This document shows, one piece after another, positions 5,890 through 26,926 of a stretch of DNA of 27,589 bases. This DNA comes from Pinguiococcus pyrenoidosus (taxonomy: Eukaryota > Sar > Pinguiophyceae > Pinguiochrysidales > Pinguiochrysidaceae), in contig JAAMXY010002602.1 of NCBI GenBank assembly GCA_019677205.1, positions 1 through 27,589 of the forward strand. The letters are read 5' to 3'. The first letter of the stretch is position 1; each line of letters opens with the position of its first letter. The notes below the pieces were generated by a model, which was given only the letters and a program-made list of their open reading frames with translations, was not told the origin of the DNA and did not search any database. A program made the translations under genes and the position numbers.

Positions 5890-8800
5890 TCAGCATCGTT
5901 CTCGCTTCCGCTCCGTTCTGAATTTCTCTCCAGGCATGCCGAGTCGCCTTTGATGCCTCTTAAGCTCCCAGCGGCGGCAGGCATTGTGCTGTGGTTTCTG
6001 CAAACTTCTACAAAGGTCGCAGCATGGTGAGGCAGACTGCTTCACGTCTTCAAGCTCTCTTTTTCCACTTGCATGCACCTTTGGCCTCTTCGCGAGAGTC
6101 GGCGTCGTGACACCTCGTCTGGTGCGGAGCATCATGCTGGGCACGACAAAGTCGGTTTGCACAGCGCCCATCTGCGTTGGCGGCTCCACCTGGATGGCGA
6201 CGGCCTTCGAAGTGTCTCGGCGCAGCCTCTCCGCCTCCAGGACGCCCGTGAGCTCCGCCTGCTTCTCCTGCAGGCGCACTTCGACATGCCTGATGTCATC
6301 CTCTAGCTTGTCGATCTTCTTCCTGTGAAGCTGCGCGAATCGTGCAAAGCGTGAGAGAGACTCTGCTGGAGCTGCAGGAAGCGGCCGAGTCCTGCTCCTC
6401 CATCCTCCTACCTTGTTCTCCGTGGAAGAGCGCTGATAGTCCACGGACAGCTGCTGACTTGCAGAGGCGAGGGACTCGGCTTCCTGTCTCGCCTTTGTCG
6501 CTTGTTCCTCCCAGTCGTCCCTTTCTGTTCTCAAGTTCTCAAGGGCCTAAACAAGCAACAGCATGAACATCAACACCAAGACAAGGCACCGCAAAGCGTC
6601 GACACCTTCCCTCCCAAACGGACTCACCTCCTTGTGGCTTTTCTTCAGGTTCTTGGTCGCGGCGTGGTGCCTCTCTGCTTGCTCCTCCATCGTATTCATC
6701 AAGTCGGTAATCTTTATCAAGGCCACGATGAGTCGTCAAGTTTTATTTCCGCGTCTCCTTTGACAACGCTCCGACGGACCTGTGTCTCCAAGCTGTCGTT
6801 CTCGCCTTGCAGCCATCTTGCCCTCATCTGAAGCTCGTCGGCACGATTCTGGACGTCGCTGAGCGCCTCCGTCAACCCGCGGAGGCTCTCAATCTCGAGG
6901 TTGGCTTTCGCCAAGTCCTGCTCAGACTCTTCGAGGCGTCGATCCTTCTCCGCTTCCTGTGATCGAGGAGTATCACATGTCATGTCATTTTCCGTTTCGT
7001 TTCCGCCCGGACAGAAAGCTGCGGTTGGTCTGTACCATCGCGTCTCCCATCTGTTCGAGGGACTCTTCTTGTTCTCTCTGAGAGCTTGCTGTCTTGGCTT
7101 CCTCCGCCTCGGCGCGCTTCAGCAGCTGGTCCTCGAGTTTCTCCTTCTCAGCGAGCCATGCCTTCGACTTGTCCTCCATCTCATTCTTTGCAGCCATCAG
7201 CTCCTGGCGTACCGACTCGATCTGATTCTCGAGCTTTGCTTTCTGGCATTCCCAGCGCAGCTCTCGGTCTTCAAGCAGCGCCAACGCGCTGGAAAGCTCC
7301 TTGGCTTCGGCCGTCAGCTTCGTCACGCTGCTGCGGAGCTCCGTCGTTTCCTGCTCCCTTGCAGCCTCGGTCTCACTTTCCAGCAGCTTGAGCTTGTGGG
7401 CAGCTCCAGAGGTGGAAGAGCTACGCTCCAGGGTGCTCGGTAGTTCGCCAGAGACCGAGGCATCGCGTTCCAAGGCATCGTCCGCCGTCTTCCGCTGATT
7501 TTCCCCAGACTGACTTGCCGCGTCTTCCTCTGCTTCGTGATCTCGACGTCTCAGCGCTTCTAACTCCTCCTTCTGATCTCGCACCAAAGCTTGCAGAGCT
7601 TCTATCTGCTGCGTTAGCATCGTCTCTTTCTTCGCGGCGTCGGTCTTCATCTCGTTGAGCTGCTTCTCATTGGCCCTATTGCTCTGCGCCAGCGACGTCT
7701 CGGACTCTTCAATGACCTTTTGGATCTTCGCCTCCGCCTCCGCCTTTGCCTTTTGCACTTCGTTGGCCGCCGTTGACCGCAACGCATCCATTTCCTCCTC
7801 CGCAGTCTCCTTCACCAAGCAGATCTTCTCTTCCGCCTCCGTCTTTACCTTGGCGAGGTGCGTATCCGCCTCGTGCTTCAAAGCGTTGAGAGAGTCTTCG
7901 ACAGTCTGAATCTTCGCATCTTTCTCGAGCAGCTCCTGTGCATTCTGATCGAGCTTCTCTCGCAGTGTAGCTGTTACCGCTTGATGCCTTTGCTCGTAGT
8001 CCGCCACGACGCGCTCCTTCGCCGCAATCGCGTCCTGCGCCTTCTGCTCCAACTGCTGGCGCTCTTGGCGGCTCTCGTGAAGCAGCTTCTCCAAGTGCTT
8101 CTCCAGCCGGTTGCGCGCCTTTTCTTCTGCTTCAAGGTTGCCTTCGTGCTCCAGCTGCAGCTCCTGCAGCTGCGTCATCAAGTCCGCTTCGCGGTGTCTC
8201 GCGGCGTTCAGCAGTGTCTGCATCCGCCCGCTCTTCTCCGTCGCGAGAGCCACCTCTGCTCGCAGGCCGCCCAGAACTTCGTCGAGGGTGGCAAGCTTCC
8301 TCCTCAGCACGGTGGCTTCACGCGTCAACCTTGCCACATCTTGCTGCCGGGACTTTGAGGTGGCCTCGGCCTTGTCCAGCTGCGTCTCGAGCTCGCTCCT
8401 GGCCTGCAGCTGCCTTTGCAGCTCCGAGACTGTCTTCTCCGAGGCCGCCAGCAGCGGTCGCAGCTTCTCAGCGTCGCGAAGTCGAGCTAGTGCAGTCCTA
8501 ACTTCGTCGCGACTCGCCGCGAGCTCGTGCCTGGTGCGCTTTAGGACGTGCATGTTGCTGCTGGAGAGCTTGGCCTTGAGCTCCAGCACCTTCTGGGTCA
8601 GGATGTCTCGATCCTCCTGCGCCTTGTGCACCTGGACGTCGAGCGCTTCGCGATCCTCTTTGGCAGCCGCTTGAGCCCGCTGTGCATCCAGCCGAGCGGC
8701 GGTGAGCTCATCGAGCAGGTGTTCGACGCGGTCCTGCAAGGCCTCGATCTTGCGGCTCTCCTTGTGCACCAGCTCAAAGTGGCCGCCGCGCTGGTCGTCG

Positions 8801-9105
8801 CGCAGCCGCAGGTAGGTCTCAAAGGGCGCAAAGACGGCCAGAGCGTCGCGGACGTCGAGACTGGGCACGGCGGTGAGGATCTCCGGCGGCACCGGCTGCC
8901 CTTGGCCGGCGAGAAGCGCCTGGCGAACGGACAGAACATCCTTTTGGTAGGCTCTTTGGATGACCTCCAGCATCATGTTTCGTCGCTTCAGGCGACCAGT
9001 GAGCAAGTCCACTTCTGTACGAAGCTTCGCGACCTCTTCGAGCACCTCGGCGCCCGCCGGTTCGTCGTCGTCGTCGTCCATGAAGAGCTCAGCATCGACG
9101 TTCAT
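5890..9105 (-). CDS. Long coiled-coil protein, uncharacterised (968 aa)
   Basis: Five exons: 9105-7036, 6956-6780, 6711-6628, 6546-6412 and 6330-5890. Introns of 79, 68, 81 and 81 nt all fall between codons (phase 0). After an acidic N-terminus with a run of Asp, residues ~20-840 are nearly continuous coiled coil with heptad-like Leu/Ala spacing and many Glu, Lys, Gln and Arg. One less helical insert (about residues 65-105, with PVPPEIL and FETYLRLRDDQRGG) may be a small folded element. The C-terminal ~100 residues are basic and carry a Cys/His cluster (CCDLC, then a His and a Cys 9 and 12 residues on) that could bind a metal. I do not recognise the family. A centrosomal, basal-body or cytoskeletal scaffold is plausible from composition and from its neighbour CFAP99, but this is inference. 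It shares a 513-nt divergent promoter with the gene at 9619. Confidence 0.82.
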
Positions 9106-9618
9106 GTTGACGAGGCGGAAGATCGCGTATGCGTCTTTTCGGCTTCTAGTCTGGCTCTACACGCTCTGCCTGTGCTTGGCCTGTCGGTAGCGAGGAGAAG
9201 AAGCTTGGAGAGGAATCGTCGACGAGCGCTCTTCTCTCTCTCTCTCTCTCTCTCTCTGCGGGTATCTTTGTGTTTCACACAAACTCGAAAACGCCACAAA
9301 AGGAAGAGACCGATTCTCAGCCTTCTCCGCTCTGGTTCCCCCGCATCTCCTTGCTCCCCTCTCTCTGATCTCGAACGCCAAAAAGAGGTGACATCTCTGT
9401 TTTCTCAAACCAAAACCACAACGCATTTTCCGCAGAACAAAGAGCCGAAAGTCAAAGAGCGGAAAACCGCGGCTAGTCCGGAGCGGACCAGAATCCTTAT
9501 TCAGCCCTGTTTCAGCAGACGGCCGTTCAAACTGCGCACTTTCCGGCCTTCCGATTGGCTCAAGCGTCCGACAAAGAGAGGATCTTGCGAACGCCGCAGT
9601 TTCGAGAGAGAGACGCCG
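9106..9618. promoter_or_regulatory. Divergent intergenic promoter region
   Basis: Head-to-head spacer between the coiled-coil gene (-) and the UBL/SAM-like gene (+). It contains a CT dinucleotide tract at 9233-9257 and an inverted CCAAT box (CGATTGGCT, core 9554-9558) 61 nt upstream of the plus-strand start. The minus-strand ORF of the neighbouring frame through here lacks conserved content. No TATA box is evident. Confidence 0.5.
9233..9257. repeat. (CT)n microsatellite
   Basis: About 12 uninterrupted CT units in the divergent promoter, on the side proximal to the coiled-coil gene (9105). Confidence 0.9.
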
Positions 9619-12137: not shown

Positions 12138-13726
12138 CTACTCGTCGTCATCATCCATCTCCAGACCGTGCGCTTCGTCGTCGCCGGCGCCCTGCACGGC
12201 GAGACTCTCTTCCTTGATCTGCTCAAACGTCTCGGAAGTGAGGAACTCCTCGTTGAAGACCGTCTCCAGGGACGCCGTGACCTCCTCGCGGACGCGGTCG
12301 AAGAGGTTCTTCCGCACGTTTCCCGTCTCGATGGCGGTCTGCACCTCCTCTTTCGCGGCATCGCTCACAGGCACCTTCCCCGTCAAGATGTAGTTGTCCA
12401 CCAGCCGCTCCGCGCGCTTTGCGAGCAGGCCGCGGTTCTGGATCTTCGCGAAGTCCGTGACCTGCAGCAGGAACTGCCGCTGCGCCAGCGCCTCCTTCTT
12501 GTTCTCCAGGAGCCAGTCGTCCCACACGCTGGCGCCGTACGTGTCCCCGTGGAACGAGCGCATGGTGGGGTTCTCGAGGATGGTCTTGAAGTGCTCGAGA
12601 CGCTTCATGCGGCGCTGCTCGTCCAGCTGGGACGTCGTGTGGTTCGGTTGCGTCGCGGACAGGACCAGGTTGAGGTTCCGGTGGATGGCTTCTCGGTCGT
12701 CGTAGTACTCATCCTCGGACAGGAGCTTCCGCAGGAACTCCTCGTTGCCGAAGAACTCCACCACGGTGGTGAACCTGCCCGCGTTGCTGGCCTTCATCTT
12801 GGACTGCAGCACCGGCAGGAGCATGCCATGGAGCTCTTCCATCTTCGCCTTGATCCCCGCAGCGAAGCCCGTCCGCGCCTCCAGATCCTCGGTGTGCATG
12901 GCATCCATGATCAACCTCGCGAGCTCCAACGTCGGCTGCGTCGCCTCCGTGGCCTCGTCTTGCCGCAGCTCCCCGTTGTCCACCAAGACCGCGACCTACG
13001 CAGGAGCAGTTTTGACACGTTAGCCCTTCGTGACGGACATGTCATGGATGGGTTGGCCCCAGCTCCAACGACACTCCTCTGCGAAGCCCCAAGCGTTGCG
13101 CCAGGCTGGCCTTTGCCTTCTGTGGCTCTCGTGCATTGCCCGTCCGCGAAGGCTTTGTTCGACACGTCTCTCACACGCCTCAGACGGAGGCTACAAGTGC
13201 GGACTTCCAGGGCTTCCGAGTGCTTTGGGCTCAGCCAAACCGGCGCTTGACTGGTGTGTTCTTCTTTGCAAGAGCGTGTTCCACGCACACCCTGGCGCGT
13301 CTCCCTCTCTCCCTCTAGCAATCTGTCTGCGTCGGTCTCTTCACCGCGCCAAAAGCCTTCTTTCCAAAGTGTGCGTGGCTGTGAAGTTGCGACGGACGTT
13401 TTGCGCTTTTTGGTTTCCTCCGCTTTCAACTGTTCACCGTCTTCTTTTGGCCACGGGTCGCGCGCTGCTTTCCGAAGCAGCGGCGCAGCGGCGGAGGCGC
13501 TCGGAGGGCGCTTCGGAGCAGCGGTCGCAGGACGCACCTTCATGATCAGCTTCATGATGTGAAGCTTCATCTCCTTCCCGGTAGAGACGGAGGAGAACTT
13601 GATGGCGGCGGCCTTGAGGTGGTGGAGAATCTCATGACCCTCTTCTCCGATGTGTTTGACGATCGCTTTGCGCCCGGCGGCGCTCTCCGTGGCGCGCGAC
13701 GCCAGGAACTTCTTAAAATGGCTCAT
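12138..13726 (-). CDS. TNFAIP8/TIPE-like domain fused to an RGS domain (348 aa)
   Basis: Two exons: 13726-13538 and 12995-12138, with a 542-nt phase-0 intron (donor GTGCGT, acceptor CCTGCGTAG). Residues 1-157 follow the all-helical TIPE/TNFAIP8 pattern: an N-terminal amphipathic helix, then IMKLIMKVAVLVDNGEL across the splice junction (family: IMK.LIKVAIKIGIL), then GRFTTVVEFFGNEEFLRKL (family: GRI.HVF..F.D.EFL..LY). Residues ~194-325 follow the RGS fold: FKTILENPTMRSF, WDDWLLENKKEAL, RAERLVDNYI, KNLFDRVREEV and EEFLTSETFEQI. The C-terminus is acidic. RGS domains speed GTP hydrolysis on G-alpha subunits; TIPE proteins carry phospholipids, and animal members are reported to interact with G-alpha-i. 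The fusion therefore suggests a membrane-lipid-aware G-protein regulator, which is inference. The family assignments come from remembered patterns. The splice is strongly supported because the conserved TIPE helix is continuous only after splicing. Confidence 0.86.
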
Positions 13727-14751: not shown

Positions 14752-16771
14752 ATGCCGCGTCTCTCTTTGTTAATTGGCCTGATCGTCGTGTCCAGCTCCA
14801 GGGTGAGTGTCCGCCCGCTTGCTGTGGCGCCAAGTGGTGGCCAGAGCTGCTCACCTCGCGCCGCCCCCAGGGATTTTCACCGGCGCCCCGGCGACGAGCG
14901 CCGCTCTCTCGCAGGTTCGAGAGCATCTCCGGAGATGGAATGGTACGCGCACGTCCTTCATGCTTCGCCAGAGCGCAAGGCCGCGCGCGGCGACGTGCCA
15001 ACCGCGCGCGTTGAACTTCTCTTGCTCTCCGTCCGCTCCCGAAGGTGAACGTGTATCAGCCGCGCCCGGACGAGGTGGTCATCGCCGAGGGCTCCGCGTC
15101 CCCCTGCGTGATCAAGGTCTTGGGCGTGGGCGGCGGCGGAGGCAACGCGGTCAATCGCATGGTGGAGTCCAACATCAAAGGCGTGGAGTTCTGGTCGATC
15201 AACACGGACGCGCAGGCGCAGGCGCGCAGCTTGGCGCCACACACCCTCAACATCGGTGCGTGCTTGTTTTGCTTGCTCTTGGGAGGGGAGGCGCGAGAGT
15301 GAGCACACGGCTGTGAAGCGCTTCTGGGAAACCTGTGGCATTTCCGACTCGAAGACCAAGATCAGGACCCGAAGCAGCGGTAGTCGCAGCACCGACACCT
15401 CCTCCNNNNCGGCCCCAATTCAGCGAGGTGGTGCTCCTCCCAGGAAGCCATGAGCATGGGTATTGGCACCAGAATCAAGAAGCTAGGATAGGAGAACGAG
15501 ATCGGGACATGAAAGAAAGAGGAGAGCTAGGACTTTCCCACCGCAAGAGCAAGCAATGCGCTCGGCAGACACTGTCGGCGACCACTCGCCATCCGGTTCG
15601 GCAGCAAGGCTAATGCCTGTTTCCGCCTGCGCCTCTTCAAAAAACCAGGCAATCAAGTGACCCGCGGCCTCGGCGCTGGAGGCATCCCGGACGTCGGGCG
15701 GCAGGCCGCTGAGGAGTCGCGAGAGATGATCGCCACGGCAATAGCCGGAGCGGACCTCGTCTTCGTGACTGCGGGCATGGGAGGCGGCACGGGTTCGGGC
15801 GCTGCTCCCATCGTGGCGGAAGTTGCCAAGGACATGGGTGCGCTCACCGTGGCCGTTGTGACGAAGCCGTTCGGCTTCGAGGGCTCCAAGCGCATGAAGC
15901 AAGCCGTGGAGGCGATCAACGCTTTTCGCGATCGAGTCGACACTCTGATTGTGGTGTCCAACGATAAGCTGCTCCAGATTGTGCCCGAGGGCACGCCTGT
16001 CAAGGTCAGTTCCCTCCGGCTCTTGCTGGTTGCGTCGCGCGACTCATGTGCCAGTGCCCTCGTTTCCACAGGACGCGTTCCTGGTTGCCGATGACATCCT
16101 GCGCCAGGGCGTCGTTGGCATTTCGGAGATCATCGTGCGTCCTGGGCTCATCAACGTGGACTTCGCCGACGTGCGTGCGATCATGGGGAATGCAGGCACG
16201 GCGCTCATGGGCATCGGGACGGGCAAGGGCAAGACGCGAGCGGCCGATGCAGCGATCGCCGCCGTGGCCTCGCCCCTCCTGGACTTCCCGATCAAGAACG
16301 CCCAGGGCATCGTCTTCAACATCGTGGGCGGCAGCGACCTGACGCTGAGCGAGATCAACCAGGCCGCCGAGGTCATCTACGACAACGTCGACTCGAACGC
16401 GAACATCATCTTCGGCGCGCTGGTGGACGACTCCATGGATCAGGACGTGAGCATCACGGTGCTGGCCACGGGCTTCAAGGACGTGGGCTTCGGCGCCACG
16501 CCGCCTCCGCCGCCCCTCCAGAAGCCGACCTTCCGAGCCAGCGACGTCGTCAAGCGCCTGGAGCCGCCCGTCCAGCAGGACCTGGTGAGTGGCAGAATCG
16601 TGCGGGGTGGCCCCTCCGGCCACCAAAGTGCAGCTGCGAACACCGCTCTCATCTTCTTCTCCTTGTTCCCTTTCACGGTCCCGGAAGCCGCCTCCCGAGG
16701 ACGACTTCCCTCCGCCGGAGGAGCCGAGGAGCAGGATGCCGGGGTTCCTTCGGAGGCTTCGCCGGAAGTAG
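14752..16771 (+). CDS. FTSZ: FtsZ, plastid division tubulin homologue with bipartite presequence (428 aa)
   Basis: Six exons: 14752-14802, 14871-14942, 15045-15255, 15649-16004, 16072-16584 and 16688-16771; all phases close. FtsZ polymerises on GTP into the contractile ring that divides plastids. Visible motifs are the nucleotide-binding loop [13 protein letters not shown] (68-80), INTDAQA (93 on), the tubulin signature GGGTGSG (156-162), the T7-loop region [15 protein letters not shown] (catalytic for GTP hydrolysis) and a conserved C-terminal peptide, [11 protein letters not shown], like the bacterial tail that binds membrane anchors. Exon 1 encodes a hydrophobic signal-peptide-like segment, [16 protein letters not shown]. 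Exon 2 begins Gly-Phe-Ser-Pro and is rich in Arg and Ser with few acidic residues. That matches signal plus transit peptides of complex plastids. Intron 3 is long (393 nt) and holds a run of Ns. The usual Asn of the GAGGNP loop is Ile (residue 124). Confidence 0.96.
15406..15409. other. Four undetermined bases (NNNN)
   Basis: A run of four Ns within FtsZ intron 3, indicating an assembly or base-calling ambiguity. The true intron length may differ from 393 nt. No coding sequence is affected under the proposed gene model. Confidence 0.99.
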
Positions 16772-17166: not shown

Positions 17167-18859
17167 CTAAAAGTGGATCGGCTTATCATACGTGGCCATG
17201 CAGGCCTCCTTCAGGGCCTCGCTCAGCGTCGGGTGCGCGTGGCAAGTGCGGGCGATGTCCTCCGAGGACGCGCCATACTCCATGCCCAGGACGGCTTCCG
17301 AGATCATCTCGCCGGCGTTCGGGCCGATGATGTGCACGCCGAGGATGCGGTCGGTGCTCGCGTCCGACAGCACCTTGATGAAGCCGTCGACGGTCTTGAC
17401 GGCGCGCGCGCGGCTGTTGGCCGTGAAGGGGAAGGTTCCCTTGTTGTACGCGACGCCCGCCTCCTTGAGCTCGTCCTCCGTCTTGCCCACGTTGGCAAGC
17501 TCGGGCATGGTGTAGATCACGCCGGGGATGGCGTCGTAGTTGACGTGGCCAGCATATCCCGCCAGCGTCTCGACCACCGCGATGCCTTCCTCCTCGGCCT
17601 TGTGGGCCAGCATGGGGCCGTCGATGACGTCGCCGATGGCGTACACGCCCTGCACCTTCGTGCGGAAGTGGTCGTCCACGGGAATGCGGCCGAGGCGGTC
17701 GGTCTCGATGCCGAGGTTCTCCAGGCCCAGGTTGTTGGTGAAGGGCCGGCGGCCGGTGGCGACCAGCACGACGTCCACGTCCATCTGCTCCGCGTCTCCG
17801 CCCTTGCTGGGCTCCATGGTCACCTTGACGCCGCTGGAGGTCACCTCCGTGTTGGTGACCTTCGTGCTGAGCTTGAAGTTGACGCCCTGCTTCTTCAGGA
17901 TCTGCTGAAACTTCTTGGATATCTCCGAGTCCATGCCCGGCGTGCTGTGGTCGAGGAACTCGACCACGGTCACGTCCGCGCCGAGGCGGCGCCAGACGGA
18001 GCCCATCTCCAGGCCGATGACACCCGCCCCGATGACGATCATCTTCTCCGGCACGGACTCGAGCTCCAGGGCGCCCGTGGAGTCCACGATCCTCTTGCCC
18101 GCGTTGTCCACGGGCGCGGGAGGCAGCGGCGTGGGCTCGGAGCCGGTGGCGATGACGACGTTCTTCGTCTTGACCACCTGGTTGCCGCCGTCCAGCAGGC
18201 TCACATCCACGGTTTGCGAGTCTTGCAGGGTGCCGAAGCCCTTGACGTAGTCCACGCCATACTTCTTGAAGAGGTACTCGATGCCGCCCGTGAGCCCCAC
18301 CACCGCGTCCTGCTTGTTGGCCATCATGGTGGGCAGGTCGAGCTCGACGCCGGACAACTTGATGCCATGTCCCGCGAACTCGTGGTTGGCCTCCTCATAC
18401 AAGTGCGACGAGTGCAGCAGCGCCTTGCTGGGAATGCAGCCCACGTTCAGGCAGGTGCCGCCGAGCCGTCCGCGGCTCTCGACGCACGCCGTCTTCATCC
18501 CCAGCTGCGCGGCCTTGATCGCAGCCACGTAGCCACCCGGACCGCCTCCGATTACGCAGATGTCATAGTCATCTGTTGTAGGCAGTTTCAAGAGCAAAGA
18601 AGGAGAGAAAGTCAGACAAGCGAAGAGAAAGGAAGGGAAGAGGCAAACAAGGGAGGGAGAGGGAGTGTGCGTCTTGGCGGCTCTCCCTCTCTCTCTCTCT
18701 CTCTCCCCATGTATCTGTGATGTGAACCTCTCAAGATCTCCCCTCGTTTGGGCCTTCTGAAGCCCTTGTGCCACTTCCTTAGGCCCGGCTCACACTGTCG
18801 ACGTTCATGCAGCGAGGATGAAGAAGAAGCCTGGCGACGGCTCGCGCGTGCGGCTCCAT
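17167..18859 (-). CDS. DLD: Dihydrolipoamide dehydrogenase (E3 subunit), organellar (489 aa)
   Basis: Two exons: 18859-18796 and 18572-17167, separated by a 223-nt intron with a long polypyrimidine tract. This flavoprotein reoxidises dihydrolipoamide in pyruvate, 2-oxoglutarate and branched-chain dehydrogenase complexes and in glycine cleavage, passing electrons to NAD. Visible features are the FAD dinucleotide fold VIGGGPGG (28-35), the redox disulfide [12 protein letters not shown] (Cys62/Cys67), the NAD-binding fold [13 protein letters not shown], the second FAD motif [19 protein letters not shown], and the C-terminal dimer and active-site segment HAHPTLSE (His468, Glu473). Length is normal. 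Exon 1 encodes an Arg-rich, Leu-containing start ([16 protein letters not shown]) that fits a mitochondrial presequence. The donor is a choice between GTGTGA (in phase, chosen) and GTGAGC (out of phase). The enzyme identity is certain; the first exon is inferred. Confidence 0.96.
18681..18706. repeat. CT-rich microsatellite in the dehydrogenase intron
   Basis: An interrupted (CT)n tract within the 18573-18795 intron. On the gene strand it reads as GA repeats preceding a pyrimidine-rich acceptor region. Confidence 0.85.
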
Positions 18860-24562: not shown

Positions 24563-26926
24563 CTAGGTGAACGCGAATGCGGAACGCACAATTTTGTCCT
24601 TCCGCTTCTTGACGAATCCAACCAGCTCCAGCTCGTAAAGCGCATGAAGGAAGCGCATGCGCAGCGCCTTCGCGTCAAAGTCTCCGGCTTGCTTCAGTGC
24701 GCTGTCAGGGCCGTCAGACAAGCGCAAGCTCAGAGCTTGCGTCGCGAATGCGCGGTACAAATCGTTCATCTGGATCTGCTTTCCCGCGTCCTGGCAGCGA
24801 TCACACGGGAGGCATCAGCACATTTCCGCCTGTCATGATGAGAGCCCCACCGTTCTTGCCCACCTTCACCGCTGACCAAAGGATTCTCAAATCCCACGGG
24901 GCTTCTCCCACTTCTTCTGGAGAACTCGGAGCTCCGCTTCGCTCTCTGACGCATGGTCTTTCGATCGCCTCGCCTATCATCTGTCGAAGGGTTGGAGCAT
25001 GGGAGCTCCGCAGTTGGCCCACGTCGTCAAACCAAAACAACTCGCTCAGTGGCCCCAATCCTGATTCAAGGCCATGTCAGGTCCGCCATCGCGCTCCGAG
25101 AGGGGTCAGCGACGATCTGAAACGCACCGATTCGCTGCACCGCATCTATGAAGAAGGCTTTCACGAGAGCTCGGATGCGCTGCCGCAGCCCGGACTTGAT
25201 CTCCGCCACCGTCGCATCTTGCAGCAGCGCTTTCGGCAAGCCCTCGCCGCCCTTTCTTTCCATCACCAGCAGCACCAGCAGCATCTGCGAGAGAAGCAGG
25301 TAGATATGACCATCGCATGCGAGCGTTGGAGGGGCAGCCCGGAGTCGACGGAAGCCGTACCTTTCGCGATTCCGCTAGGTTTTGCAGGCAGGCGGCATAC
25401 CATGCTTCTTCCTCGAAGTCAACTTGTATTTCGCGGAGCAGTTGTATCCATCGATTGAGAAGCGCAGAGGTGCGCCTGTTGGTATCGACGGCGCGCCACA
25501 GGCTTTCTACGAAGTCTTCGTATCGCCGGCCGCGCCGCAGCACGACCTCCAGAAAGACCCTCGCCGGAGTCTCGCGGAGCCCGAGAATGCGACAGGCCTC
25601 TTGTCCGCATCTCGTCACCAGCCCAATGAGAACTCGCTGGGCGCACTGCTCTCTCGCCCATTGCCGCACTGGTCGGCCGCTCTCTGCTTCGTTTGTCGTT
25701 GCCTTTGCGATGGATGGCAGTATCTTCGACAGCGTCTTCACATCCAGCTGCTCGAGGGAGGAGCGCAGCTTCAGCTCATCCCGGAAATCCTTCATCCGCA
25801 GGAGCGCACAGAAGGAGAAGGGCTTCTTGAAGTGGCACAGCAAGGCGTAGTCGATGTACCGAAGCAGCGTTCGCACGGAGCCATGCTTCTCCAGGAACAT
25901 CGTGCTGAACCAGTAGAGCACTCCGGGCGAGAGCATGACGGGCACCTTGGCGTTGATGAACAGCTCCTCAATCAGATCATCCGCTATTTGCATCGAAGTC
26001 GGCGGCGAGATATGCCTGGGAAGCAGCACTTTGGATTCGAAAGGTAAGCCTGGCGCACTTTCCCTGTGTGGTCTCCGGGGCAGAAAGCTCGTACCGGCTT
26101 CCTGGGATGCACCCAATGGATGCGGAAAGCCCGTGGCAGTCGGCACGACAAAGACCAACCCGATGCTCTCCACGTTCTCCATGCTCGTCAAGTACGAAAG
26201 CAGCAGCTGCATCTCCGAGGACGCCATGCAGTTGCAGTCGTCAAACACCGCGATGAGCCGCGTCTCCGGGCGCAGCTGCAGCAGCATCTGCAGCACTTCC
26301 GCACTCAGACTCTCCGGCAGGACCTCTGCCTCCGCGAGCAGCTGCGTCGTCCTTGGGTCTGCGTAGCTGCCGAGATACTTATGAAGCGCAGTCCTCATAA
26401 AGCTCAGCGTCGAGTACGCCGTGCTCACGTCGTCCGCGCGGAGTCGAAGTGTGAAACACTGCGGCGGCAGAGAACTTTCGAAGTGCAGGGCGAGGTGCTT
26501 GGAGAGCGCCCTTCGTTCCACTTCATGGATGGAGCTCTGCATCAACGCGCAGGAGATGAAACCTGTGTGCTTCTCGCGCATGAAGTCTGCCGCTTCTCGG
26601 AACACATCTCTGTGGAGAGCGCCGTAAACTTGGCTGTACACCTAAGCAGCAACGCCACGGAATCTGAGCGCGCAGGAGCTTAACATCCCTTCTCTCGCAA
26701 CGCGACTTACGTCGTTCACGACAGCGCAGCACTCGCGATAGGCTTCGTATCGAAACCAGGCGGAGTCGGTCTCCTCTATCTTGAACGCTTTGTGCGGCGT
26801 ATGAGTAACCTAGCGACGGCGTGAGTCAACTCGCTCAACTCTGTTTTGGAGGGCGCGCAGGGTACCATGCTCCCTGCGTACCTGTCGATACGGATCGTCT
26901 CGCGGTAGGATGCAGCGAATCGACAT
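24563..26926 (-). CDS. ORC3: ORC3, origin recognition complex subunit 3 (647 aa)
   Basis: Seven exons: 26926-26882, 26809-26711, 26641-26113, 26049-25361, 25284-25128, 25060-24864 and 24790-24563; introns are 72, 69, 63, 76, 67 and 73 nt and phases close. ORC3 belongs to the six-subunit complex that marks replication origins and loads MCM. Family features are the N-terminal segment WFRYEAYRECCAVVND, the degenerate AAA+-like core (LIAVFDDCNCM, GLVFVVPTATG), LLPRHI followed by IADDLIEELFI, then YIDYALLCHFKKPFSFCALL, and the C-terminal winged helix (GKQIQMNDLYRAF, RMRFLHALYELELVGFVKK). No Walker A motif is seen, as expected for ORC3. The 63-nt intron at 26112-26050 has no in-frame stop, so it could be retained. 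Exon 5 to 6 splicing was chosen because it restores the spacing of the ORC3 DICIAYKLH-type helix. The start is the first in-frame ATG, 103 nt downstream of an E2F-type site. Confidence 0.92.

Follow-up and report, generated by a model that had tools for sequence, protein, structure and literature searches.

A TIPE domain joined to an RGS domain in an expressed, single-copy gene of the alga Pinguiococcus pyrenoidosus

Lipid-carrying domains of the TIPE (TNFAIP8-like) type have been described chiefly in immune and cancer proteins of animals, and RGS domains usually bind G-alpha, the molecular switch through which cell-surface receptors signal. In this study, we analyzed a 27,589-nucleotide stretch of the genome of the alga Pinguiococcus pyrenoidosus (contig JAAMXY010002602.1, positions 1 to 27,589; hereafter the window), in which one gene on the minus strand (12138-13726, encoding 348 residues) joins the two domains in a single protein. 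Its closest functional precedent is Gip1 of Dictyostelium (PDB 5z1n and 5z39). According to passages of PMC6219514, the C-terminal region of Gip1 is weakly homologous to TNFAIP8 proteins and shares their cylinder fold, the cavity of this fold accommodates the geranylgeranyl group of G-gamma, and the heterotrimeric G protein was found experimentally to be sequestered by this TIPE-fold protein via the prenyl group. In these passages Gip1 has an N-terminal PH domain and a C-terminal TIPE fold, whereas the algal protein starts with TIPE, continues with RGS and has no PH match in Pfam. GRK2 is a partial analogue; PDB 2bcj, which was among our Foldseek matches, holds GRK2 together with G-alpha-q and G-beta-gamma. 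For the animal TIPE proteins themselves, the link to receptor signaling looks unsettled: G-alpha-i has been proposed (in the title of a paper cited by PMC6219514), and so have Rac and phosphoinositides (excerpts of PMC7170861). The same excerpts describe TIPE proteins as conserved in animals and name the weakly related Gip1 as their sole counterpart in unicellular organisms such as Dictyostelium; the algal gene extends TIPE beyond the range given there.

The gene consists of two exons. Exon 1 (13538..13726, 189 nt) supplies the start codon and residues 1-63, the first part of the TIPE domain, in our gene model and in the database protein P0001. It is followed by a 542-nt GT-AG intron inside the TIPE domain (12996..13537, GTGCGT...GCGTAG), whose join agrees with P0001, and by exon 2 (12138..12995, 858 nt including the stop codon TAG), which encodes residues 64-348 in one frame, including the greater part of TIPE and the complete RGS domain. 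All three lie on the minus strand. P0001, from MMETSP, was the single matching entry in a database of proteins derived from public genome and transcriptome data; it is labeled complete (cluster n=4), is identical to the spliced product at 347 of 348 residues with H339D as the sole change, and spans the exon join unbroken. MMETSP is a transcriptome collection. Since P0001 reads through the exon join, the two halves should be joined in the mRNA, with a protein sequence as the basis of this statement; in conceptual translation, retention of the intron leads to a first stop at codon 272. Moreover, both domains are found in one and the same exon-2 open frame, so that the fusion holds however the intron is spliced. 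It could be argued from the single genome contig and the single transcript-derived cluster that separate genes or exons had been falsely joined. This is hardly credible, as a single exon-2 frame is enough to encode the whole RGS domain and the greater part of TIPE, and it is already contradicted by the transcript-derived protein, which agrees at 347 of 348 residues and runs across the join. In a six-frame profile search of the genome (23.7 Mb, 768 contigs), TNFAIP8 was matched once, by the window gene, and the full protein as a query gave four matches: one to each exon, and two weak ones to RGS alone on contig C514 (E 0.2 and 0.3). A TIPE-RGS protein is encoded at this locus by an algal gene that is expressed and present in one copy, and we regard both this architecture and the expression of the gene as virtually certain. 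A first-pass annotation, made from the letters of the window, had given the coordinates, the 542-nt intron and the 348-residue product exactly, and its proposal of a TIPE and RGS fusion in one protein was borne out by Pfam, by the six-frame search and by P0001, the last also joining the halves across the intron.

The TIPE half was recognized by Pfam family PF05527 (TNFAIP8) at 56.8 bits (cut-off 22.5, E 3.5e-15) over residues 5-175, corresponding to profile positions 11-178 of 181. The match starts in exon 1, and its exon-2 part (residues 64-175; 12660..12995, minus strand) was recovered in the six-frame search with profile positions 67-178 at E 7.5e-7. The predicted model of this half has the six-helix cylinder fold and matches TIPE structures, the match extending to residue 179. 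Hence the TIPE assignment made at first pass held on both counts, but its end at residue 157 did not; the domain reaches about residue 175 by Pfam or 179 by structure. Identity to animal TNFAIP8 and TIPE1-3 is 19-26%. For 58 alignment columns, at least 95% of 25 vertebrate rows are hydrophobic, and the algal protein has a hydrophobic residue in 47 of them; for 83 columns at most 5% of these rows are hydrophobic, and it has one in 17. A first-helix dilysine (K5 K6) aligns. The TIPE2 mutants are listed in an excerpt of PMC7170861 as H28, R75, R91, and K183, and our comparison covers R75 and R91 of these four. Neither of these phosphoinositide-site arginines is kept in the algal alignment, being replaced by D69 and T85, and the phosphoinositide role implied at first pass thus finds no support at R75 and R91.

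The RGS half (residues 214-322; 12219..12545, minus strand) was matched by PF00615 at 40.5 bits (cut-off 23.9, E 4.1e-10), and was recovered from the exon-2 frame in the six-frame search with profile positions 7-116 at E 1.3e-9. Its predicted model matches RGS structures (Foldseek, VIA), so Pfam and the predicted fold agree on the RGS assignment, and the two predicted halves resemble TIPE and RGS structures, respectively. In a scan of the whole protein against Pfam-A at E up to 10, TNFAIP8 and RGS were the sole families, with no PH and no kinase. The protein ends with an acidic-rich tail of residues 323-348 (12141..12218, minus strand) that closes in DDDDE. We then compared 11 positions of RGS4, an R4-type protein like RGS16, using a list of G-alpha contacts; E87, N88, N128, L159, D163, and R167 are among them. 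With the numbering checked against PDB 1agr, none of the 11 is kept in the alignment, N88 and N128 included, and a standard role as a GTPase-activating protein (GAP) is not supported for this half. These replacements bear on a first alternative, in which the protein is a working GAP that is recruited to the membrane by TIPE, the TIPE half binding a phosphoinositide or other phospholipid and the RGS half speeding GTP hydrolysis by G-alpha. The clear RGS fold and Pfam match, a genome that has G-alpha with a conserved switch I, the aligned dilysine and the binding of phosphatidylinositol bisphosphate and trisphosphate (PIP2 and PIP3) by animal TIPE2 and TIPE3 (PMC7170861, in part) would all suit it, but with the loss of the 11 RGS4 positions and of R75 and R91 we consider it rather unlikely.

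By sequence the first match of the RGS half was GRK3, and the first Foldseek match was GRK2. Identity to the RGS-homology domain of GRK2/GRK3 is about 20%, and a two-residue insertion is common to the GRK and algal domains (MAFFT alignment). In GRK, however, the RGS-homology domain is followed by a kinase domain, whereas the algal protein has no kinase or PH match and ends 26 residues past RGS. The two first ranks would fit an effector, in which the RGS-homology domain is bound by active G-alpha and the TIPE lipid carrier is thereby brought to a signaling site, where it delivers or shields a lipid, and a report of lipid transfer by TIPE3, as cited in part of PMC6219514, points the same way. 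The replacements of R75 and R91 on the TIPE side speak against such an effector, which seems to us unlikely, marginally more so than a membrane-recruited GAP. The RGS domains of Axin and of sorting nexins (SNX) were also among the fold matches, with Axin level with the best, and together with the change of all compared RGS4 positions this would agree with an RGS-like domain that serves as a scaffold unrelated to G-alpha, as in Axin and sorting nexins. The fusion would then be uninformative on G proteins. Given the first ranks of GRK3 by sequence and GRK2 by Foldseek, and a TIPE half whose fold has a G-protein precedent in Gip1, such a scaffold is improbable.

Our genome search further revealed the other parts of a G-protein system. 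G-alpha (PF00503) gave 18 matches, of which eight exceeded the cut-off, on five contigs (C468, C304, C620, C75, and C254), and switch I reads RVRTSGIV in three good loci. When the N-termini were read in frame, one of three stretches examined began with MGACGSS, a myristoylation-type start, and the other two had no such start. There are two top-scoring G-beta-like genes (C359 and C199), and two more frames exceed the cut-off only as summed WD40 pieces. RGS (PF00615) was matched 21 times, 16 over cut-off and the window gene included, and class C receptors (PF00003, 7tm_3) 13 times, several being paired or tripled on one contig (C91, C44, C155, and C216). Since TIPE is joined to RGS, and the genome encodes receptors, G-alpha and G-beta and has no other TIPE match, heterotrimeric G proteins are indicated as the shared partner, which suggests that the TIPE domain works in the same signaling pathway as its RGS partner. 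A link between the TIPE fold and heterotrimeric G proteins was itself already known, and the fusion adds support to it from the genome of a different lineage. The link to G-protein signaling put forward at first pass holds up, but the fusion is not the first evidence for it, Gip1 having come earlier (PMC6219514, in part). The algal protein is moreover a single molecule on which this idea is open to simple binding assays. Two side observations were made in this survey. One G-alpha-like copy (contig C254, 7703-8053, locus L026) has an internal TAG and several odd residues and is perhaps decayed, and an 895-residue frame on contig C514 (4959-7244) carries five RGS matches in tandem (L002, L003, L005, L006, and L018), four over cut-off and one weak.

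A function directed at G proteins, of whatever kind, is very likely. Its form is more tentative: by analogy with Gip1 we favor, at a little short of even confidence, a G-protein carrier or scaffold that has its own G-alpha dock and no GAP activity. In such a protein the TIPE half would form a six-helix cylinder with a lipid in its hydrophobic cavity, and Gip1 suggests the lipid anchor of a G-protein subunit as the likeliest occupant; the RGS-homology half, nearest in sequence to GRK2/3 and with the residues for GAP action lost, would dock on G-alpha. In the simplest view both halves would address the same G protein, with a lipid anchor entering the TIPE cavity and G-alpha bound by the RGS-homology domain, and together they could hold or escort the heterotrimeric G protein (or G-alpha) off the membrane or back to it. 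Such escorting would set the amount of G protein within reach of a receptor. Because the compared GAP-facing residues are replaced, holding or escorting seems likelier than switching off. The more specific idea of a soluble single-chain carrier of the whole heterotrimeric G protein, one domain swallowing the lipid anchor and the other gripping G-alpha, appears doubtful. If true, it would suggest, with Gip1, that the original job of eukaryote TIPE folds was to control G-protein location, and that the immune and cancer roles of TIPE in animals are later variants. Several results weigh against a Gip1-like carrier or scaffold. Two other domains likewise keep none of the 11 RGS4 positions, and VIA places GRK2 below RGS16 and Axin; support is also missing in that Glu307 of Gip1 has no clear match in the algal protein and the single G-gamma match in the genome scores below its cut-off. 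Our estimate was kept after the VIA and two-domain results because it rests on the Gip1 precedent and the fusion, not on likeness to GRK.

Both domains are of known kinds; their combination appears new, and is new to us. With the full protein as the query, 6095 candidates yielded no match at E up to 1 other than the protein itself, and with residues 1-180 the same held for 805 candidates at E up to 10. With a three-row profile (the algal protein with mouse Tnfaip8 and TIPE3 segments), 410 matches were obtained in a capped set of 7997 scored candidates. In the best 120 of these 410, PF00615 and PF05527 occurred together only in P0001, the other 119 rows had the TNFAIP8 domain alone, and every row with an organism name was from a vertebrate. 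A scan of viral contigs gave no TIPE-RGS fusion, and the literature searched (mainly titles and starts of abstracts) contained no report of this architecture. The first-pass statement that no such protein had been described therefore agrees with the literature and protein searches made. No second fusion was found elsewhere, but these searches depend on exact 5-residue words in common with the query, and the two made with one protein cover only lengths of about 191-609 residues, which leaves room for a diverged or longer fusion to have escaped.

As for the surroundings, four of the ten window frames scanned against Pfam were matched (two FtsZ exon frames, a dihydrolipoamide-dehydrogenase-like frame and an ORC3-like frame), and nothing suggests a functional cluster. 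An FtsZ gene of several exons (about 15015-16550, plus strand) shows Tubulin/FtsZ and FtsZ_C matches, and its sequence looks to be of the cyanobacterial or plastid type; unreadable codons (X) near 15400 in its frame may mark an assembly gap. On the minus strand, a 540-residue frame (17170-18789) with strong Pyr_redox_2 and dimerization matches reads as dihydrolipoamide dehydrogenase, a 511-residue frame (25109-26641) has an ORC3 N-terminal match at E 1.4e-6, and a 723-residue frame (6988-9156) of coiled-coil appearance is unmatched in Pfam at E up to 0.001. A genome search for phycobilisome linker gave no match, which makes an alga with phycobilisomes unlikely as the source, whereas the 13 class C receptor matches and LHC motifs may point to a secondary alga of the red lineage, perhaps a stramenopile. 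Chlorophyll-binding proteins were matched 22 times at E up to 1e-6. Together with the adjoining FtsZ of apparent plastid type, these 22 matches uphold the view that the gene belongs to a plastid-bearing protist.
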